This document shows positions 18,700-29,838 of a stretch of 35,645 nucleotides of DNA, in pieces. Within the stretch, counting starts at the first letter, position 1; the number at the start of each line of letters is the position of its first letter. Origin of the DNA: a bacterium (GTDB taxonomy: Bacteria > Vulcanimicrobiota > Xenobia > Xenobiales > JADMJV01); assembly GCA_030149525.1 (NCBI GenBank), contig JASBRJ010000062.1:1-35645 (forward strand), written 5' to 3'. Under the pieces are notes generated by a model. It saw only the letters and a list, made by a program, of their open reading frames with translations. It was not told where the DNA came from and ran no database searches. Made by a program: the position numbers and the translations under genes.

Positions 18700-20643
18700 G
18701 TGAATATCTCCGCTCGCCAACCCTCCCGTGAACTTCTCCTCAGAGTAAAGAACGACGGTAGCTCCCAACAGCTGCTGAAGGAATACGATGCCGAGCTTGT
18801 GGAGCGTGTCGACGCCCCCAAGCTTGAAGGAGATATTCTTCATATCCGCCTTAAAGGAGATACCTCAGAGCAAGCGGCTTTGAAGAAGTTGCGGCAGGAT
18901 GCCCGCGTCATGCGAGCGGCTCCCAATACCCGGGTTCAGAAGATGGAGGGTCTCCCTGGGGATCTGAACTCGGAGTTGTGGGGCCTCCATAATACAGGGC
19001 AGGATAAGGGAACTCCCGATGCCGATATCGATGCTCCGGAGGCTTGGAGAATCACCACCGGCAAGCGGGAAGGTGGTCCTGTGATCGCTGTTATCGACAC
19101 CGGCGTTCAACTGGATCATCCTGATTTAGACGCTAACATTTGGACCAACCCCGGTGAGATTCCCGGAAACGGCATCGACGACGACGGAAACGGTGTCATC
19201 GACGACGTCCACGGCTTTGATGCGACTTTGAACAAAGCCTATGTCTCCACCAAGCATTCCCACGGCACCCACTGTGCCGGGACCATTGCCGCCGAGGCCA
19301 ATAACGATGAAGGTGTGGTGGGAGTGAATCATCACGCTCAGATTATGCCGATCAAGATTTTCCCCGACGATGGCGAATCCGCCACCGCTGCTACTATCAT
19401 CCGAGCCGCCCTCTACGCCGACAAGATGGGGGCTCGTATCACCTCGAACTCCTGGACCGGAGGCGGTTATAACCCCGTGGTCCGAGATGTGTTCGGCTCC
19501 TCGGATGCCTTTCATATCTTCGCTGCCGGAAACGACGCTACCAACAACGACGAAGTTCCCAGCTATCCCGCTTCTTTCAATCTCGATAACTCCGTGGTTG
19601 TGGCCGCAAGCGATCGCAACGATCAGTTAGGCTACTTCTCCAACTACGGCAAGAAGAGCGTGAACATCGCCGCTCCCGGCGTGGCTATCAAGTCCACGGT
19701 TCTCGATAGCAAGTACGCCACCTACAACGGTACCTCCATGGCGACTCCCCATGTGGCTGGAGTGGCCGGTCTGATAGCCTCGGAGTTTCCGGATATCAGC
19801 AACCAGCAGCTGAAAGACCGTCTTCTGTTCGGAAGCGACGCCAAGCCTCAATTCGCCGACAGAGTGAGCAGTGGTGGACGATTGAACGCCGCCAATTCCG
19901 TCTCTCGAGACGCTCTGCCGCCTGCTGCTCCTGCCGACTTCAAAGCCGGTGGAGGAGCCGCCACTGTGCGCATGCGATGGACTCCCACCGGCGACGACGG
20001 ATTCTGCGGTAAGCCGTCGGGTTACGAAGTGAAGTTCTCCGACACACCCATCACCGCCGAAAACTGGGACGAGATTCCTCTGCTGGAGAGCGGTCGGACC
20101 AATCCCGTGGACGGGCCGGAGACGAAGATGTACGATGTGGTTCCGTCGGCTTCGGGTAGAACCATGTACGCCGGTATCAAACTGGTGGACAAAGTGGGCA
20201 ACCGCAGTGAACTGAAGAGCTCCGAGGTGAAGTTGAGCCCGGGCACGGTTCGATATGAAGGTGGAGATTGGACGAAGACGGGTGAGTGGGATGGTCTCTC
20301 CACCAGGTCCTCCGGTTCACTCACCAGCCCGCCCATCGATATGTCCGGTCTGGGCGATGTGGCCATCCATGTGGAGAGCGATTACAACCTTGAGCCCCAC
20401 TACGATAGGGTCATTGTAGAAGCCAGAAGTATCGGTGCCGAAGCGTGGAGAGAAGCGATTCGAATGGACGGTGGACAGGCCAAAGGCAAAGTCTACCGAC
20501 TTCCCGTTCACTCCCTGGACGGCGGAGAGATGGAATTGCGCATCAGAACGGAGATCACCGGACCCGCCGGTGAAGGCGAGTTCACCTTGAAGCGAGTGGC
20601 TGTTTCCGGATACGGTGTGGGAACCCAGGAGCCTCTGGCCTAG
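18700..20643 (+). CDS. S8-family subtilisin-like serine peptidase with C-terminal accessory domains
   Basis: A 647-aa subtilase. Residues 8-85 resemble a propeptide (ELLLRVKNDGSSQQLLKEYD). The catalytic triad is intact: Asp in AVIDTGVQLDHP (about 131), His in HSHGTHCAGT (about 189), Ser in NGTSMATPHVAG (about 345), with oxyanion Asn in FAAGND (about 279). A calcium-binding-like loop, NGIDDDGNGVIDD, follows the Asp. After residue 400 come an FN3-like domain and a beta domain. GTG 18700 is the first possible start, because TAG lies ten codons upstream in frame. Despite the propeptide, no signal peptide is visible. It leads the cluster with TPR-CHAT and a second subtilase. Confidence 0.93.
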   Translation: MNISARQPSRELLLRVKNDGSSQQLLKEYDAELVERVDAPKLEGDILHIRLKGDTSEQAALKKLRQDARVMRAAPNTRVQKMEGLPGDLNSELWGLHNTGQDKGTPDADIDAPEAWRITTGKREGGPVIAVIDTGVQLDHPDLDANIWTNPGEIPGNGIDDDGNGVIDDVHGFDATLNKAYVSTKHSHGTHCAGTIAAEANNDEGVVGVNHHAQIMPIKIFPDDGESATAATIIRAALYADKMGARITSNSWTGGGYNPVVRDVFGSSDAFHIFAAGNDATNNDEVPSYPASFNLDNSVVVAASDRNDQLGYFSNYGKKSVNIAAPGVAIKSTVLDSKYATYNGTSMATPHVAGVAGLIASEFPDISNQQLKDRLLFGSDAKPQFADRVSSGGRLNAANSVSRDALPPAAPADFKAGGGAATVRMRWTPTGDDGFCGKPSGYEVKFSDTPITAENWDEIPLLESGRTNPVDGPETKMYDVVPSASGRTMYAGIKLVDKVGNRSELKSSEVKLSPGTVRYEGGDWTKTGEWDGLSTRSSGSLTSPPIDMSGLGDVAIHVESDYNLEPHYDRVIVEARSIGAEAWREAIRMDGGQAKGKVYRLPVHSLDGGEMELRIRTEITGPAGEGEFTLKRVAVSGYGVGTQEPLA

Positions 20644-20682
20644 AAGCGAGGACCTCCCCCCTGAGAGCAGAACCCACTCAAA

Positions 20683-23496
20683 GTGGAGCTTCAAGCCAAA
20701 AAAGCCATATTGCACCTTCTTCTTTTGGGATCCCTGGTGGGGGGCGCCTTTGCCCAGAGTCGGGAAGAGTCGAACGCTAGGTGTTGGGATTTGTACGAAA
20801 AGGCTCAATATCAGCAAGGTCTTGAATTGGTGCAAGGGTCGCTTGAGGCCAATCCGACCGAAGATCTGGTGGCGGCCGAGAGTCATCATGTGATGGGGGA
20901 ATTGTTGTTCGGGTTGGCCCGCTATGACGATGCCATCAAGGCATATACTCGAGCTTTGGAGATTCGGAGAGCGAAGTTGCCGGGGGACGACCCGCTCATC
21001 GCTCAGACCCTGGTGGACCTGGGTCTACCTCACAAGAAGCTGGGGGATTTTAAAAAGGCGCGTCAGTTTTACGATGAGGCTCTCGCGTTGGCCGAGAAGA
21101 ATTTTCCCAAGCATGCCACAACCGCTCGAATTCACAATAATCTCGGAGCTCTTTTGGACATGGAAGGCTTTGTTCGGAGTGCTGAAAAGCACTATCAGAA
21201 AGCCCTGGATCTGAAAAGAGAGTTAGGGGAGGGGCCGGTCAGTCTGGCGGCGACCCTGTCGAATCTGGGAGAGGTCAGTCGACGGCAAGAGCGCTTGGAT
21301 AAGGCTACCGAGTACTTTTCTCAAGCCCTTAAGCTCCGTGAGAAATCACTCGGTCCGGAGCATCCCGACACTCTGATCAGTCGACAGAATTTAGCTGTCA
21401 TCCAAATGTCTCTGGGTCAGTGGGACACTGCGAAAGCCAGTCTCGAGCAATGCCTTGAAGGAACGAAGAAGGCGGTCGGATTGGAGCATCCTAAAACGGC
21501 CACTCTCTTGGCCAGCCTATCTGTGCTTCACTCGCGTCGATATGACGAGTTGAAGGAAAAGAGTGATCTGGAGCAGTCGACCGTTTACCGCGAAGAGGAG
21601 CTTCGGATACGGAGAAAAGTCCAGCCGAAAAGTCCGCTTACGTCCGATTCCATTCTGGAGTTAGCTCTACTTCGACAGAAGCAAGGTCAGCAGAATGAGG
21701 CGGTCGCTCTTATGAGCACAGCTCTTCATAATCGTGCAGGTCAGTCTCAGTCGAACCTGTTGGCCAGGCTCTCTTACCTTATGGCTGATTCATGCTTGAG
21801 TGAGGGAGAGCTCGACGACGCACTCAAGCATGCGCGCAATAGCCTGACTCTCTACAGTCATACCACCGGTTTCAAGAGCATTTCGGCGCTCAATGCTGTG
21901 ATTCTCTACGGACGCATACAGATAGCCAGGCAAGACAAGGAGAAGTCTTGGAGCGCGACCAGCAATTTCCTGAGGTATTATGAGGAAAACGTGGCCGAAG
22001 TTTTCAGCTTCGCCTCTGAGAGTCAGCGGCTCGGTTATGTGAACAACGTACCGGTTTATAAGTTGGTCTCCCTCTACGGAAATGCACCGCTGATGGCCCG
22101 CACCGTCCTTCGGCACAAAGGGCTGGTTCTCGATTCTCTCTTGGAAGACATGGATTTGGCCCGAATGGACCCCGAGTCGGCCACTGTGGCTCTGAGGCTT
22201 CAAGAGATCGGCGAGGAGTTGGTCCGGCTGGAAATGGCAGGAGAAAAATCCGCTCGACTCACCGCTCTTCGCCAAGAGTTCGGGGAGCTTCAGGGGAAGC
22301 TTGCCCGTCCCTTTGCTCAGCGAACCAGGCGCGCGCTTCAGGTTGAGCCCTGGGAGGTTCAAAAGAAGATTCCCCAGGGGGCCAGGTTGGTTGAGTACGT
22401 CCTCATCGATAACAGTGAGTATGGCGCGGTGATTCTGTCCAGGGACGATATCCGATGGGTTCCCCTCGGTCCGGTGACTCCTATCCACTCCGCCCTGGCC
22501 GATGCCCGGCGATCTTTGAAGAGATTCGATAGAGGCTTGGAAAGTGACCTCAAGAGACTCTATCAGCTTGTTTGGGCTCCTCTCGTGCCTGCCCTGGGTG
22601 AGAGCCGGCGGGTTATTGTGAGCCCGGACGGCCGGCTCAACTTTGTGAGCTTTGCCACTCTCCTGACCCCTGAGGGCAAATTTTTGATCGAAGATTTCAG
22701 CCTTGAGTATGTGGCCAGCGGGAGAGACCTTCTGAATCCATCTAAAGCCCACCGTCAGGATGCTCGTCTCATCGGCAACGTGGCTTTCGGAGAGCCCGCA
22801 AAGCAGACTCCGGTGGCCAGGGATCGAGGCTTCGTTTCCCTCAACTTGAGCCCACTCCCCGGCACGGAAGAAGAGTGCCGAAAGTTGGGTGGGCTTCTGG
22901 AGACGCAAAATTGGAGACAGCATTTCAGCAGCGGCGAACAAGCCAGCGAAAGCCTGGTTCGCGATTTTCAGTCACCTGGGATTCTTCATCTGGCCACCCA
23001 CGGTTTCTTCCTTCCCAAGGGAGAGCGGGGCCTGGAGAACCCCATGCTTCGAAGCGGACTTGCCCTGGCCGGTTCGGCTTCGAGTATAAAGAGCCGCCTC
23101 GCCGGAGGCGCTCCCGCTCCTGATGGCGACGGTCTGCTCACCGCTGAAGAGGTAGGTCGCCTGGAACTCCAAGAGACCTGGTTGGTTTGCCTGTCCTCCT
23201 GTGAAACAGGTCTGGGCGAGGTGGTCGAAGGGGAGGGCGTCCTGGGCTTGCGACGAGGTTTTATTCGCTCGGGGGCCCAGAACCTCATGCTCACTTTGTG
23301 GCCTATCGACGACACTCAGACCGCTGATTTCATGGTAGATTTTTATGGAGCCTGTTTGGAGAGTCGTTCTCCCGGACGGGCGCTCAACAAGGTTCAGCGA
23401 GACTGGCTGGTTCGTTTGAGAGACGAGGACGGTTTGGCTCAGGCCGTGTTTGTGGCAGGGCCCTTCATTCTCACAGCTCAGGTCGATCTGCAATAA
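20683..23496 (+). CDS. Exported TPR-CHAT protein (caspase-like protease domain)
   Basis: A 937-aa protein. Residues 1-25 form a signal peptide (ILHLLLLGSLVGGAFA, then QS). Several TPR repeats span about residues 60-300 (YDDAIKAYTRALEIR; FKKARQFYDEALALAEK; SAEKHYQKALDLKRELG; LDKATEYFSQALKLREK), and a helical linker reaches about 600. The C-terminus is a CHAT domain, a caspase-fold peptidase: catalytic His773 in LHLATHGFF and Cys840 in LSSCETGLGE, with GAQNLMLTLWPIDD after them. The full dyad suggests activity. Start is GTG 20683, placing the signal peptide correctly. It lies 39 bp after one subtilase gene and 41 bp before another. Confidence 0.92.
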   Translation: MELQAKKAILHLLLLGSLVGGAFAQSREESNARCWDLYEKAQYQQGLELVQGSLEANPTEDLVAAESHHVMGELLFGLARYDDAIKAYTRALEIRRAKLPGDDPLIAQTLVDLGLPHKKLGDFKKARQFYDEALALAEKNFPKHATTARIHNNLGALLDMEGFVRSAEKHYQKALDLKRELGEGPVSLAATLSNLGEVSRRQERLDKATEYFSQALKLREKSLGPEHPDTLISRQNLAVIQMSLGQWDTAKASLEQCLEGTKKAVGLEHPKTATLLASLSVLHSRRYDELKEKSDLEQSTVYREEELRIRRKVQPKSPLTSDSILELALLRQKQGQQNEAVALMSTALHNRAGQSQSNLLARLSYLMADSCLSEGELDDALKHARNSLTLYSHTTGFKSISALNAVILYGRIQIARQDKEKSWSATSNFLRYYEENVAEVFSFASESQRLGYVNNVPVYKLVSLYGNAPLMARTVLRHKGLVLDSLLEDMDLARMDPESATVALRLQEIGEELVRLEMAGEKSARLTALRQEFGELQGKLARPFAQRTRRALQVEPWEVQKKIPQGARLVEYVLIDNSEYGAVILSRDDIRWVPLGPVTPIHSALADARRSLKRFDRGLESDLKRLYQLVWAPLVPALGESRRVIVSPDGRLNFVSFATLLTPEGKFLIEDFSLEYVASGRDLLNPSKAHRQDARLIGNVAFGEPAKQTPVARDRGFVSLNLSPLPGTEEECRKLGGLLETQNWRQHFSSGEQASESLVRDFQSPGILHLATHGFFLPKGERGLENPMLRSGLALAGSASSIKSRLAGGAPAPDGDGLLTAEEVGRLELQETWLVCLSSCETGLGEVVEGEGVLGLRRGFIRSGAQNLMLTLWPIDDTQTADFMVDFYGACLESRSPGRALNKVQRDWLVRLRDEDGLAQAVFVAGPFILTAQVDLQ

Positions 23497-23537
23497 CCTT
23501 TCAGACCCCTTTCAGGCCACTCATCTAAGATAAGACC

Positions 23538-24917
23538 ATGCAGCTCAATTCTCAACTCAAAAAGAATCCATTCAACCCTTCCCTGAAACGTATGGAACGG
23601 CCGACCGATTCGATTGGTGAGTTGGAAACGACCGGTGAAGGCGTTGGGGTGGCCGTCTTCGATTCTGGTATCTTTCCTCACCCAACCATCGACGATAATC
23701 TTGTGGCCGCAGTGACGTTCGGCAAAACCTCTCACGGTCCCGACACCGACAAGAAGGGTCATGGAACCGCCACGGCCGCGGTGATTGCCGGCACCGGTAA
23801 GGGGTCGAACGGTCAGATCAAAGGAGTTGCACCCGGGGCCAAGCTGATCAACGTTCAGGTTCTCACCGAAGAGAAGGGCCAGGATATCGTTGACGGTTAC
23901 TCATCGTTTCTCGGCGCCATCGACTGGACCATTGCCAACAAGGACAAATTCAACATTCGAGTGATCAATATCTCCGGCGGATATTCTCTCATTCCCAAAC
24001 AGGACGAGAACGGCCAAATTTCAAGTTTCATCGATCCCTTCGGGACCTCCATCAAAAAGGCTATCGACGCCGGTATCGTGGTCGTAGCGGCCGCCGGCAA
24101 CGACGGCCCGGGTCCGGGAACTGTTCTGCGCACTCCAAACCACAATCCTAACGTCATTACCGTAGGGGCCCTCGACACGAAAGGGACCCAGGATGACTTT
24201 TCCGATGATACGGTAGCCGGCTTCTCCAGCCGCGGCCCTACGCTGGCAGGAGACCAGAAGCCCGATCTGGTTGCCTCCGGAGTCGCCATAATGTCGGCCC
24301 TGGCACCCAACTCAGAGGCGGCTCGCAACAACCAGGCGAAAATCGACAATTTTGAAAAGGTCAAAAACCTCTCCGATCAGGAGGTCCTCCCGTATATTCA
24401 GTCTGAGAGAGAGGCCAAGCGTCTCAGTGCGGAGAGTCTCAGCGAGGCCGTTCCCTCCATCCTTCCGGTGCTGCCGGAGAAGTTTCAAGCCTTCATTGCC
24501 AGTCGGGAGCCCAAAGTACAAGCCATGATGGCTCTGTCTACCCTGGAGAAGCTAACGGCCAAAGGCGCCGTGGACACGGAGAGTGAGGCTTTCAAGAGCG
24601 CCCTTCAGGGGGTGCGCCGTGTTCTGGAAGACAAACTAGAGCCGCAGCCTACGGCGGGTTTCCTGGATAACGGGGAGGCGGCGTTCCTCGGCTGGGACGG
24701 CACCTCGTTCTCTGCTCCCATCGTCTCAGGCGTCATCGCCCATATGTTTGAGGCCAATCCAAATCTTACGCCCGCTCAAGTGAAAGAGATTCTGACCAGC
24801 ACGGCAAGGCCCGTTCCCAACGCCGACCCCACAGCGGTGGGAGCAGGCGCTCTGGATGCCCGGGCGGCGGTGGCCAAAGCACGCGCCCTGTCGGAAAACG
24901 TGATCGCCAACGACTGA
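23538..24917 (+). CDS. S8-family subtilisin-like serine peptidase with a large internal insertion
   Basis: A 459-aa subtilase lacking both signal peptide and propeptide; the catalytic domain begins within 40 residues. Asp42 (AVFDSGIFPHP), His75 (KKGHGTATAAV), Asn188 (AAAGNDG) and Ser390 (DGTSFSAPIVSG) are all present. About 120 residues are inserted between SGVAIMSALAP (about 252) and the nucleophile region. The insert is largely helical and charged (EAARNNQAKIDNFEKVKNLS; YIQSEREAKRLSAESLSE). Simple subtilases have only a short loop there, so this may be a regulatory or binding element. ATG 23538 has only a weak ribosome-binding site. The next gene starts 13 bases after the stop. Confidence 0.93.
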   Translation: MQLNSQLKKNPFNPSLKRMERPTDSIGELETTGEGVGVAVFDSGIFPHPTIDDNLVAAVTFGKTSHGPDTDKKGHGTATAAVIAGTGKGSNGQIKGVAPGAKLINVQVLTEEKGQDIVDGYSSFLGAIDWTIANKDKFNIRVINISGGYSLIPKQDENGQISSFIDPFGTSIKKAIDAGIVVVAAAGNDGPGPGTVLRTPNHNPNVITVGALDTKGTQDDFSDDTVAGFSSRGPTLAGDQKPDLVASGVAIMSALAPNSEAARNNQAKIDNFEKVKNLSDQEVLPYIQSEREAKRLSAESLSEAVPSILPVLPEKFQAFIASREPKVQAMMALSTLEKLTAKGAVDTESEAFKSALQGVRRVLEDKLEPQPTAGFLDNGEAAFLGWDGTSFSAPIVSGVIAHMFEANPNLTPAQVKEILTSTARPVPNADPTAVGAGALDARAAVAKARALSENVIAND

Positions 24918-24930
24918 ACGGGGGGCTGAA

Positions 24931-26118
24931 GTGGAAGAAGCTCTCCCTGAGACAACTCGTCAGGCCCGGGAACCTATCCGGTGGTTGTTGATAGGTCTAC
25001 TTCTTGGCCTGTTGGGAGCAGCTTTTTACGTTATTTTTCGACCCTTCGTCGGCCCTGTTTCCTGGGCGGCCATTGTGGTCTTGGGAGCCTGGCCTCTGCA
25101 CAAACGGGTGAGTGAACGCCTGCCGCGATGGCCAGCCTTGTCGGCCACCCTGAGTTCTGTGTTCATGCTGATAGTGGTCATCGGTGGTCTCATTCCTGTC
25201 CTTCGAGGCCTGGGCCCGGAGTTGAAATCGGCGGTCTCAAGCGTCACGTCCTACGTGAACTCCAACCAGGACTCTCTGGTCGAACGAGCCGCCTCGTTGC
25301 CGTTGATCGGTGAGACTCTGGCTCGAGAGCTTTCCAATCTCCAACAGTCCACAAAACAGCTTGGACCGCTGCTTCAGGAATATTCCCAGACCCTGCTGGG
25401 AACGGCCTCGGTCGCCGCTCAGGGACTCGCCCGTCTCTTCTTTGAAGCGGTCACCTTTTTGGTCGCCGTTTTCTTCCTGTTTTACTACGGACAGACGCTC
25501 TCCATCCAGCTCCGGAGGGCACTTCTTCGGGTCGACAACGAGACGGAAAAGCTTATGATTTTGGTGGAGAAAACTGTTATCGGCGTGCTCTACGGAATCG
25601 TCTTCACGGCTATAGCTCAAGGGCTCTTGGCGGGCATCGGATTTGCCGTTGCCGGCGCTCAAGCTCCTATTCTGTTAGGACTCACCACCATGTTTTTCGC
25701 GGTCATTCCTTTTGGACCTCAGTTGGTTTATCTGCCGGTCTCTGCGGCCTTTCTTTTGAACGGACACCCGGTTCGAGGGGTTTTATTGGCTCTCTGGGGC
25801 TTTCTCATCGTGAGCTCCGCCGACAACGTTCTCAAGCCTTATTTCATCGCACGTCAAGCCAAGCTTCCCCTGCCTCTGGTTCTCATAGGTGCCACCGGCG
25901 GAGTGCTCGGCTTTGGTGTCATCGGAGTTTTCGTAGGGCCTGTGGTCATCGGATTGATGCGCTCTCTATGGCTTGGGTGGGTCCATCCTGAAGCCGTTTT
26001 TGAGGAGCCGGAGGAGCTGCAAGTCGACTCTCCGCAGGCTCCCGAGGAGAAGTCTGAGCCTGAACCGGAGAGCCCTCAGACTCTCAGCGACTCGGGTCCC
26101 ACTCTCCCACAAACCTGA
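24931..26118 (+). CDS. AI-2E/PerM-family membrane transporter
   Basis: A 395-aa integral membrane protein of the AI-2E transporter (PerM/TqsA) family, named for autoinducer-2 export but with diverse or unknown substrates. About seven to eight hydrophobic segments are present: [20 protein letters not shown] near the start, [20 protein letters not shown], and [20 protein letters not shown] toward the end. [12 protein letters not shown] is a typical C-terminal family motif. A Glu/Pro-rich cytoplasmic tail follows (about 345-395). GTG 24931 follows the subtilase stop by 13 bases with a GGGGGGC upstream, so the two are probably co-transcribed. The 3' end overlaps the convergent oxidoreductase gene by 43 bp. 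Confidence 0.88.
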
Positions 26119-27083
26119 GCCCCGATTTCATAGGAACGAAGTCTTGCCTGAGGGTCGTAGATGTGGCTTGCCAGAATAATTTCGTCGGCCTGCGTCTCTT
26201 CCACGATCTGCTCCAACTGTTTTTGTACCGTCTCGGGGGAGCCTACAGCCGAGTAGGAGAGAGCGCGTTGAGCGGCCTCGAGATGGAGGGGGTGAACTTT
26301 GCTACGAATATCTTTTACCGGCGGGGGCAAACGGCCCGGATTTCCGAAGCGCAAGGCCGCAAACATCTGTTGCACCGAGGTGAAGAGGTAGCGGGCTTCT
26401 TCATCGGTCTCCGCTGCGTAGAGATTCATGGCGACCATGGCGTACGGTTTCTCCAGGACGTCGGAAGGTTGAAAGAGACCTCGGTACACTCTGAGGGCTT
26501 GATGAAGTTGCGCGGGCGCAAAGTGGGCTGCGAAAGCGTAAGGTAGGCCTTTGACGGCGGCGAGTTGTGCGCTGAAAAGGCTGGAGCCCAGCAACCAGAT
26601 GGGCACCTTCGTCCCTGTCCCGGGGACTGCCTGGATAGGCCCGGGATTGTCGCTCAGGTACCTTTGGAGCTCTTCCAGGTCGTTGGGAAAAGATTCCGCG
26701 TTGCCCGCCAGGTCTCGGCGAAGGGCGGCCGCGGTCTTCTGGTCGGTTCCTGGAGCACGACCCAGACCCAGGTCGATTCGTCCAGGGTAGAGCGTCTCCA
26801 GGGTGCCGAACTGCTCGGCGATAACCAAGGGAGCGTGATTGGGCAGCATAATGCCACCGGCGCCGACCCTTATGGTCTTTGTGCCTCCCGCCACATGGCC
26901 TATGACAACAGCGGTGGCGGCGCTGGCGACTCCCGGCATGCTGTGATGTTCGGCTAGCCAATAGCGGTGATAGCCCCAATCCTCGGCTCGTCGGGCGAGG
27001 TCGAGGGTGTTGGCGAGCGCTTCAGAGGCGTTCGAATTTTCGGCGATGGGAGTGAGATCAAGTATAGAATATGGAATTTGCAT
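26076..27083 (-). CDS. LLM-class (luciferase-like) flavin-dependent oxidoreductase
   Basis: A 335-aa protein with the luciferase-like monooxygenase fold, which uses reduced flavin. Family marks: [12 protein letters not shown] at the N-terminus, [20 protein letters not shown] (the conserved EHH), [21 protein letters not shown], and ERY-region equivalents [15 protein letters not shown]. The sequence belongs to the MsnO8-like subgroup. ATG 27083 has AGGA seven bases upstream; an overlapping GTG at 27086 is less likely. Substrate unknown. It is convergent with the PerM-like gene (43-bp overlap) and divergent from the thioredoxin-like gene. Confidence 0.93.
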
Positions 27084-27182
27084 CACTGTGTCCTAACCGA
27101 GAAAAAACGAGATGGTTCCTCCGGGGTTATCCAGGACGGAATTCCAGGAAGGCATTTCGAAAGGGTCGAGTCAGGAGGTACG

Positions 27183-27848
27183 ATGAGAAAAAAGACGTTG
27201 ACATCGTTCATCCTCTTCGGTTTTGTTGCTCTTTTTCTGGCAACGGCATCGGCAGAGGATATTTACGTCAAAAACAGAGTCTTCAAAGGTACAGTTGTGG
27301 GCTCTGGAATGACGTCGGAACTCAATCTTCAGGAGTTAAGTAAAGCTCTTGAGCTTGAGTACAAGGAACAAAACGGCTTGTGGAAGCTCGGGGACTACGA
27401 AGTCCCCGGGCGCGAACAAGACGGCATGATCCTTGTCACACTACAAGACTTGAAGAATGCCGGGCTTTACGTCAAGCATAGCCCGGATCTGGGAACGATC
27501 GACATCGCCGTCCCGAAGGCGAAATCCGAGGTGGCGAAGAGTTCCGGAGGAGCCTGGGGGGGATCCAATAAGCCTACCCTGGTCTATTTCGGGGCGAATT
27601 GGTGAGGTGCTTGCCGAGCTTCCAAGCCCGGCCTGGCTCAGTTTGAGTCCAGTACATCAGCCTTTAACGTCGTCCACGTGGACATGGATCGGAAAGGATC
27701 TGCCGAATATAGAAAATACTCCAGATTCTTCAAGGGGAACGGCATTCCGTTTTGGGCCGTCCTCAACGCCAAAGGGGAACCCGTTCACAGTTTTGTGGGC
27801 GGGCAAACCTACGACAGCCTGAACCAACACACCAGAAAATACAAGTAA
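27183..27848 (+). CDS. Putative selenocysteine-containing thioredoxin-like protein with in-frame TGA at the active site
   Basis: Read through TGA 27603-27605, this frame gives 221 residues ending at TAA 27846. Residues 1-22 are a signal peptide (LTSFILFGFVALFLATASA). Residues 25-120 resemble a stalk/copper-amine-oxidase N-like domain (weak). The rest is a thioredoxin fold: KPTLVYFGANW, then U141-G-A-C144, then RASKPGLAQFE, VVHVDMDRKG, and the cis-Pro strand GIPFWAVLNAKGEPV. The TGA falls exactly where the first Cys of CxxC belongs, and 80 more codons continue the fold. A strong AGGAGG lies four bases before ATG 27183. The alternative is a single TGC-to-TGA mutation that truncated it recently. 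Sec machinery genes are not in the window. A thiol-disulfide reductase outside the cytoplasm is the likely role. Confidence 0.8.
27633..27652 (+). promoter_or_regulatory. Candidate bacterial SECIS element
   Basis: Downstream of TGA 27603, arms 27633-27640 (CTGGCTCA) and 27644-27652 (TGAGTCCAG) pair in 8 bp around a GTT loop, with one bulged T at 27648. The loop begins 35 bases after the TGA and starts with G, and a bulged U is part of the stem. These points fit published bacterial SECIS descriptions, from memory. The free energy was not computed. Confidence 0.55.
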
Positions 27849-27858
27849 AACAAACCTC

Positions 27859-27893
27859 AAAAAAGAGCAGTTCTCAAAGGGCTGCTCTTTTTT
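27859..27893. terminator. Strong intrinsic terminator, probably bidirectional
   Basis: AAAAAAGAGCAG pairs perfectly with CTGCTCTTTTTT across an 11-base loop. The T run on the plus strand ends the thioredoxin-like gene; the A run gives T's on the minus strand for the PilX-like gene, whose TAA stop lies at the terminator's edge (27892-27894). Confidence 0.9.
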
Positions 27894-29838
27894 AACGCGC
27901 GCCCAGGGGTGTCCACCGCACTTTGTGGGCGACCTTCGGTGCAAAGGGAGCTGCGCTCAAGCCACCGGCCGCCGAAGCAAGATTCGGGTCGTATTCAAAG
28001 TCCACTCCGATTTGACCATCGATGATGTCGTCCGGTGGAATGTAGAACGACTTCACGATCCACGGTGTTTTCAGATTCGAGGCATCGCTGTTGTTGAACT
28101 CGGCCATATCGGCGATCCGCAGATGGGTAATGCTTCCGGTGCCGCGGATTTTGATGTTTTGTAAGTTTTCCAGAAAGTCTTCCGATTGTGGGAAAGCCAC
28201 CTTGAGCTCCGAGCTTGAGGTGGGGAGTTGTTTGACCTTTCGATTCAGATTTCCCAGTAACGGATTCTTGATTCCCGTGTCCGGTATGTAGGCAGAATTG
28301 TCCGGGTCGTCGACCCAGGGTCGAACGTCGTTGGTGGGTGTTCCATCGATGAGGGCCGCGTTCACTTCCAGAGTGTCGGTTTCATCGCCGGGGTAGAGGG
28401 GGGGATCGGATTTCTCCGGCATACCTGTTCCTGCAGCGAGTTCCAACAGACTGGGATAGTAACTGGAGGGCGTGTCTTTGAAACTCTCGGTGAGACGGTA
28501 GATTCTGTCGCTGGTCATGATAGAAACAGGTTTGTGTTGCGGGGTCCCGGCCGACCTGGCCGCCGCGTTGGGAAACTGTTTGTTAAAGTCACCTTTGATG
28601 TAAACAGTGGAGGCTGAAGCGACGGAGAACTCGGCGGGAATGCTCGCTCCGTTGGACAGACGCAAGGGCACTTCCGAATAGATCAAACCCTTGCTCGGGA
28701 AGGCACCGTCGGCATACATTTTCTGGATGTCCAGCTCTTTCACGGTAACCAATCGCTCCTCAGCCTGGTTGTAGAAGGTGACGTCTTTAACGTAAGAGGC
28801 GGAGGTGGTGGAAGTGATCGTCAGGGTGGCCTTGCTGGCGTAATAGCCGCCCGGGGCAAAGGTTTTGCGGTTAGGAGCGGCCACCACTTTGCTTCCCAGA
28901 TTTCGGTCGGCCACGGCACCGTCCCATCGAGAGATGGCACCGTTGGAGCCGGTGTCGGTCCAGTCTTTGTGGAAAGAGTCGTAGGCGTTTCCTTTACCGT
29001 AGGCTCCCTCAGCCGAGCCTTCCATCAATCTGGTGGCGCCGGTCTTAGAGTTCGTAACGCGAACGCTTCCTCCATCATCGGATTGTGACCAGATGTCGGT
29101 ATGGCGAACGACGTTTCCGCCCGCCGTCATTTCATCGGTAAACACTTCCAGGGTGGGGTTGGTTTTGCGCATGACAACGATGTCGGGGAGCAAGAACAGC
29201 TCTTTCTCCAGGCCGTCTGTTTTGTAGGGCCGTAGATACATGTCGCCGTTGGCGTGGATTTTGCCGGCCAGTCTTTCGGTGGAAGAGCGGGTGAAGTCGG
29301 CCAGATCTCCGTTGTCGAAAATAGCGTAGTTGAGAGGCGAATCCACCACGCCTTCCAGTTGGTGACGAGCGACTCTCCGGCCAACATAGGCTTCAGCGAT
29401 GATTCGATAATGACCAGGTGGGTCGGTGTTCGGGAAAAGAATTTGAAAACGATATCGTTCTTGCTTGCCGGAACGGGTGAAGGAGTCGTCGATATCGTCG
29501 CCGGGGTTCCACTCCCAAGCGTACCAACCGTCACTGTCTAGCGTGAGGTTCGGTATGTCCATGGGCATGAGCAGGTTCGGATCGCCGGAGCTGAGTTTGC
29601 CCCCGTCGGGCTTGTGGGTGTAGCTGCTAAAATTGTTGGCGGCAAAGAGATTGAAGGCGACGTTGAGAGCAGACTCCGCCACATAGAAACTTTGAGACTT
29701 CAGCTGTTCCTGTTTGGCAAATCCGGCTCCGTTCAGGGTGGAGTTCACGACCGCGAAAGCCATGAGGACGGCCAGCGGAATTGTGAAGAGAGCGAAAGCA
29801 AGAAGAAATCCACGGGCTGATAAGCGAAATCGTCTCAT
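27892..29838 (-). CDS. Large PilX/GspK-like pseudopilin
   Basis: A 648-aa protein. MRRFRLSARG is followed by FLLAFALFTIPLAVLMAFAVV, a prepilin-like helix without Glu at +5, as in PilX. The segment KQEQLKSQSFYVAESALNVAFNLF (split: KQEQLKSQSFYVAESALN, VAFNLF) has the PilX AESAL feature. The remaining 570 residues are beta-rich, with VPLRLSNGASIPAEFSVASA and Gly/Asp loops, and no recognised domain. PilX proteins are usually about 150-250 residues, so the long extension may be an adhesive or tip domain. It overlaps the PilW-like gene by four bases (ATGA). ATG 29838. Confidence 0.78.
   Translation of the reverse strand: MRRFRLSARGFLLAFALFTIPLAVLMAFAVVNSTLNGAGFAKQEQLKSQSFYVAESALNVAFNLFAANNFSSYTHKPDGGKLSSGDPNLLMPMDIPNLTLDSDGWYAWEWNPGDDIDDSFTRSGKQERYRFQILFPNTDPPGHYRIIAEAYVGRRVARHQLEGVVDSPLNYAIFDNGDLADFTRSSTERLAGKIHANGDMYLRPYKTDGLEKELFLLPDIVVMRKTNPTLEVFTDEMTAGGNVVRHTDIWSQSDDGGSVRVTNSKTGATRLMEGSAEGAYGKGNAYDSFHKDWTDTGSNGAISRWDGAVADRNLGSKVVAAPNRKTFAPGGYYASKATLTITSTTSASYVKDVTFYNQAEERLVTVKELDIQKMYADGAFPSKGLIYSEVPLRLSNGASIPAEFSVASASTVYIKGDFNKQFPNAAARSAGTPQHKPVSIMTSDRIYRLTESFKDTPSSYYPSLLELAAGTGMPEKSDPPLYPGDETDTLEVNAALIDGTPTNDVRPWVDDPDNSAYIPDTGIKNPLLGNLNRKVKQLPTSSSELKVAFPQSEDFLENLQNIKIRGTGSITHLRIADMAEFNNSDASNLKTPWIVKSFYIPPDDIIDGQIGVDFEYDPNLASAAGGLSAAPFAPKVAHKVRWTPLGAR

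Follow-up and report, generated by a model that had tools for sequence, protein, structure and literature searches.

We predict that the gene at positions 27183-27848 of the analysed stretch of DNA (35,645 nucleotides, referred to as the window) encodes a genuine selenoprotein, an apparently exported two-domain thioredoxin with selenocysteine (Sec) at its active site, and from the sequence evidence we place the probability of this reading at about 0.92-0.93. The strongest evidence for the proposed Sec codon is a conserved, covarying hairpin with a GUU loop downstream of the in-frame TGA.

Reading frame and genomic neighbourhood

Translation of the gene (Table 1) gives a single in-frame TGA in the context LVYFGANW-U-GACRASKPGLAQFES (also given as LVYFGANW-U-GACRASKPG), followed by 80 sense codons up to the TAA at 27846-27848. 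The first-pass annotation had placed the TGA exactly at the first Cys of a thioredoxin CxxC (U-G-A-C), which the translation confirms. Its claim that the fold carries on to the TAA and includes the cis-Pro also holds: the PF00085 (Thioredoxin) match crosses the TGA with 33.8 bits against a gathering cut-off of 23.5, and a cis-Pro-type IP is found in GNGIPFW, in a column at least 90% conserved among the aligned homologues. The WCxxC-type motif reads W-U-G-A-C with the resolving Cys present, and PF13098 (Thioredoxin_2) also exceeds its cut-off (28.4 versus 27).

Table 1. Coordinates of the gene, its predicted elements and its flanking signals.
Feature	Position	Strand	Remark
Complete Sec-thioredoxin gene, predicted	27183..27848	+	221 residues, Sec = residue 141
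Sec codon TGA, predicted	27603..27605	+	nucleophile position of UGAC
Shine-Dalgarno-like AGGAGG	27173..27178	+	just 5' of ATG, from sequence
Signal peptide, predicted	27183..27254	+	MRKKTLTSFILFGFVALFLATASA, by eye
N-terminal domain	27255..27518	+	putative distant kin of Cu_amine_oxidN1 (PF07833), via homologues
Thioredoxin domain	27564..27830	+	residues 128-216, spans TGA, PF00085 match
SECIS hairpin GGCUCA-GUU-UGAGUC, predicted	27635..27649	+	loop GUU 27641-27643, 35 nt past UGA
Terminator-like inverted repeat	27859..27893	+	T6 end, directly 3' of TAA

Codon-position GC is similar before (0.54/0.39/0.61) and after (0.51/0.45/0.62) the TGA. A perfect 12-bp inverted repeat (27859-27870 and 27882-27893) starts 11 nt past the TAA and ends in TTTTTT, as expected if the gene ends at the TAA; a consensus terminator scan did not return this repeat because its loop is 11 nt. 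The pattern TGG-TGA-GG-NNNN-TGY has 13 sites in the genome (8.27 Mb), and since only two of the 13 fall in thioredoxin frames, here and at C147:22209, the TGA in such a frame is not a matter of chance. The gene is flanked by those of a luciferase-like monooxygenase (26076-27086, upstream) and of a 648-aa protein (27892-29838, downstream). Both lie on the opposite strand, as do pilin-like genes downstream, and the Sec-thioredoxin gene appears to be monocistronic. Elsewhere in the window (18700-24917), a protein with TPR-like repeats and an apparent CHAT-type protease end, assigned by eye, lies between two subtilisin-like proteases.

Domain architecture and export

The thioredoxin domain is best fitted by thioredoxin/TlpA-like models rather than by those of DsbA or peroxiredoxin. 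The protein, which has two domains and a predicted signal peptide, scores 31.9 bits against the 96.8-bit cut-off of the thioredoxin equivalog TIGR01068, and none of the NCBIfam models reaches its own cut-off on it. The N terminus (MRKKTLTSFILFGFVALFLATASA followed by ED) resembles a signal peptide by eye, and the protein is thus apparently exported.

The N-terminal domain of the window protein has no PF07833 match by itself (gathering cut-off 24.2 bits). Among nine homologous N-terminal domains four match PF07833 at E<=1 (best 1.1e-6), and one of them exceeds the cut-off when scored within its full-length protein (27.8 bits). The domain has the pattern VxNxPFxG and in paralogues (e.g. on contig C242) is joined to other C-terminal regions. 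A single-sequence AlphaFold model of the whole protein was poor (pLDDT 51) and was set aside; the N-terminal domain modelled alone reached a pLDDT of 74.9, and a Foldseek search with this model returned nothing convincing (best E 0.2).

A conserved and covarying SECIS hairpin

Folding of the 48 nt past the TGA in 14 Sec homologues gave a hairpin with the loop GUU, or with GUU inside a 5-nt loop, and its loop G lies 35 nt past the UGA in 13 of the 14. In an alignment of 15 sequences, registered on the loop G and with 13 rows sharing the same UGA distance, 8 of 8 pairs are changed on both sides; the covariation is 0.614 versus 0.219 +/- 0.040 in shuffled alignments. Given this registration and the kinship of the rows, the shuffle counts are not to be taken as probabilities. 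For this reason the covariation argument is carried by the slide control, in which moving the partner by 1-3 columns leaves a covariation of at most 0.20, and by the compensatory pair types (G-C, A-U and G-U at 7/19; G-C and U-A at 6/20; U-A and C-G at 9/17). The 13 rows of identical 35-nt spacing give 0.484 versus 0.224 shuffled. The motif [CU]CAG[GU]U is found in all 14 Sec homologues versus none of 14 non-Sec homologues.

The same genome encodes a second predicted Sec-thioredoxin (G000:C147:22209; L062:1501) with the site WUGACRQ, a putative lipoprotein with the lipobox VCGCSG. Its gene has the same CUCAGUU-GAG hairpin 26 nt past the UGA, three codons earlier with respect to the protein alignment, and this shift argues that the hairpin is no by-product of protein conservation. 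The selD gene has a hairpin GCAG-GUU-CUGC 33 nt past its UGA.

The published bSECIS model (PMC13188914) describes a loop of 3-9 nt with G in its first two places and a stem of 4-16 bp, located 16-37 nt from the UGA, with an energy threshold of -7.5 kcal/mol. The window hairpin fits in spacing (35 nt), in its 3-nt loop of G then U, and in its stem, which has only 6 bp including one G-U pair. Unlike the model, the isolated hairpin falls short of the threshold (-4.7 kcal/mol); the 28-nt fold containing it reaches -9.7, and most Sec homologues are below -7.5 in such a fold. The 48-nt fold after the TGA (-15.2) is within one standard deviation of its shuffles. The hairpins of this lineage also differ from the general model in their nearly constant CUCA-GUU-UGAG core.

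A covariance model of the hairpin ranked the C147 gene first and the window gene joint second over the genome; both thioredoxin hairpins went into the model, so that this ranking measures rarity in the genome and not independence. The search, which missed selD and is thus not exhaustive, added no convincing pair of UGA and hairpin to those of the two thioredoxins. The site C20:3282 was considered as a further Sec gene and rejected: it has the motif but lacks a suitable open frame. Rfam has no SECIS family at the hairpin position.

Homologues and variation at the catalytic site

Of the 58 relatives searched, G001-G006, G015, G017 and G019 contain homologues whose frame has exactly one TGA. In 12 of 12 inspected homologues the TGA is at the same codon (WUGAC, WUGPC, WUGSC, WUPAC and TUPMC), and homologues with TGA at this codon come from four families (f1, f2, f4 and f6) within the same phylum. 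The two-domain architecture together with Sec is also found in G005, G006, G017 and G019. A sister family contributes four genomes (G010-G013) in which the site reads WCPAC, and a paralogue in the same genome as the window gene (C369, L036) has WSPAC. Five proteins from G001-G005 (L024, L032, L039, L048 and L049) have WAPA(A/S) with both cysteines lost, a form kept in all five genomes of this sister genus. The paralogues with Ser at the site (WSPAC) or without cysteines (WAPAA) are possibly non-catalytic binding proteins.

The orthologous proteins are divergent, with about 30-36% identity, and the search turned up no second genome of the same genus. The tree of the thioredoxin domain is poorly resolved and has five state changes, of which the well-supported branches force at least two for Sec; with such resolution neither a Sec-first nor a Cys-first order is favoured. 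Scanning genome contigs with the Sec-thioredoxin protein returned distant Firmicutes thioredoxins only, and a plasmid search gave no match.

The presence of Sec at the site goes together with selA, which is found in every genome with an inspected TGA-thioredoxin (G000, the genome of the window, through G006, and G015, G017 and G019). Four genomes of the same order (G007, G008, G009 and G014) have no selA and no tRNA-Sec over threshold, and no homologue at all, hence none with a TGA, was recovered from them. In G010-G013 the machinery is present and yet the site holds Cys, so a genome equipped for Sec need not use it there.

Selenocysteine machinery

The genome that contains the window is a draft of 8.27 Mb in 398 contigs (97% complete, 4.5% contamination). 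Contig C390 carries selB, selA and selD side by side, with matches of 329 (cut-off 242), 489 and 342 bits, respectively. SelB is full-length (636 aa), with EF-Tu domains and a C-terminal SelB-wing_3. SelD has an in-frame TGA of its own (KCAG-U-AS); active recoding thus has the support of at least one canonical selenoprotein. A tRNA-Sec with the anticodon tca is found on C119 (73 bits versus a cut-off of 47), and a second, divergent tRNA-Sec(tca) on C223 (L014:1501-1592; G000:C223:1600) scores 53 bits; this genome is the only one among 19 with two copies over the cut-off. The C223 copy has a C-C mismatch in the acceptor stem and is a candidate duplicate, pseudogene or contaminant. A complete DsbD (701 aa, with DsbD_N, DsbD_TM and thioredoxin parts) is encoded on C44.

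Two observations concern selA in relatives. In G004 a selA gene (C21:69523-70815) contains one in-frame TGA. In many distant relatives a Cys-thioredoxin gene adjoins selA (G053:C8:41600-43185, G037:C11, G055:C1, G025:C1, G041:C71 and others), which suggests a thioredoxin dedicated to selenium metabolism.

The Sec reading of the first-pass annotation is supported by this machinery, by the TGA homologues and by the covarying SECIS hairpin, which that annotation did not contain. The genes selA, selB, selC and selD, for which it proposed a search, were all found in the same genome, and the homologues have TGA or Cys at the site (Ser or Ala in some paralogues) with the frame continuing beyond it. 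The outcomes that it had named as contrary to Sec, i.e. no machinery, a misread TGC or truncated homologues, are each contradicted.

Alternative readings and proposed mechanism

The TGA could be a real stop, arising from a nonsense mutation or from an assembly error (TGC misread) and leaving a pseudogene or a truncated protein. The exact gene is represented by one genome copy, and the site does change, to the point that active-site cysteines are lost in the WAPAA paralogues of G001-G005. Against this stand the same-codon TGA in homologues of several families, a frame that is open and conserved for 80 codons with a terminator-like repeat past its TAA, the SECIS hairpin, and the like codon-position GC on both sides of the TGA, and we consider a real stop very improbable. 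Still less credible is recoding of UGA to another residue, by a Trp code or by general suppressor read-through. In principle the frame could be rescued by whatever tRNA decodes UGA, and the genome has two tRNAs with the tca anticodon; however, both are called tRNA-Sec, UGA is an ordinary stop elsewhere, ending 12 of the 25 genes of the window, the hairpin fits a bacterial SECIS, and the residue at the site in non-Sec catalytic homologues is Cys, never Trp.

For decoding as Sec, we propose that SelB with Sec-tRNA-Sec would bind the GUU-loop hairpin, so that the UGA is read as Sec, and that the signal peptide would take the precursor out of the cytoplasm. There the N-terminal domain may serve as a binding or spacing module, which is a guess. 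Thioredoxins attack with the first Cys of CxxC, the residue that Sec would replace here; the U-G-A-C site would then act as a thiol/selenol-disulfide oxidoreductase, with the selenolate of Sec attacking the disulfide of a substrate and Cys144 as the resolving residue. Electrons would most likely come from the inner-membrane DsbD of the same genome, the most plausible source for an exported UxxC protein.

We lean, by sequence-based reasoning, towards such a DsbD-fed reductase. A selenoprotein with another role, oxidative or isomerising (DsbA/DsbC-like), peroxide-reducing, or in metal or selenium handling, is a serious possibility, to which we give somewhat less than even odds: the predicted signal peptide and the UGAC site are compatible with exported thiol oxidoreductases of every kind, no role can be read from the N-terminal domain, and no neighbour points to a substrate. 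The fit of the thioredoxin domain to thioredoxin/TlpA-like models, and not to DsbA or peroxiredoxin, argues against these roles, as do the complete DsbD and the low redox potential that a Sec nucleophile usually confers, which favours reduction.

Relation to known selenoproteins and significance

Two UxxC selenoproteins have been catalogued (PMC9312934, PMC13188914): a Sec-thioredoxin with PF00085 (WP_010956703.1, Kim et al. 2015) and a Sec 'thiol:disulfide interchange protein' with PF13098 (WP_011366075.1). With the former the window protein shares Sec as the first residue of UxxC, a UGA with a downstream SECIS, and Cys homologues; it differs by its predicted signal peptide and extra N-terminal domain, by a score far below the equivalog cut-off, and by a lineage for which no report was found. 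The latter has a thioredoxin-like domain with UxxC as well, and is set apart, by description, by the lineage and the N-terminal domain of the window protein. The C-terminal thioredoxin part also weakly matches the rhodanese/DsbD fusion-like selenoprotein TsoB (NF045694; E 2e-4), from which the window protein differs in its score (19.5 bits versus a cut-off of 805) and in having no DsbD membrane domain.

Among the papers searched, none joins selenocysteine with Eremiobacterota, the phylum tentatively assumed for this genome. Sec-thioredoxins are already known; as far as searched, what is new is a two-domain Sec-thioredoxin with a predicted signal peptide in a little-studied phylum, and the variation of the same site between Sec, Cys, Ser and Ala within that phylum, with no new principle involved. 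We tentatively suggest, as an idea that we hold to be possible rather than probable, that a phylum-level lineage may have moved Sec into envelope redox through exported two-domain thioredoxins and thioredoxin lipoproteins, their catalytic position repeatedly switching between Sec, Cys, Ser and Ala and their SECIS being of near-fixed sequence and relocatable within the gene.

Standard annotation ends such proteins at the active site, and a conserved class of exported selenoenzymes has thus probably been missed in these genomes. The compact SECIS signature CUCA-GUU-UGAG can be used to seek further selenoprotein genes of the lineage. Finally, the family provides a natural series of Sec, Cys, Ser and Ala variants of a single catalytic position, and it bears on the question of what advantage Sec may have outside the cytoplasm.
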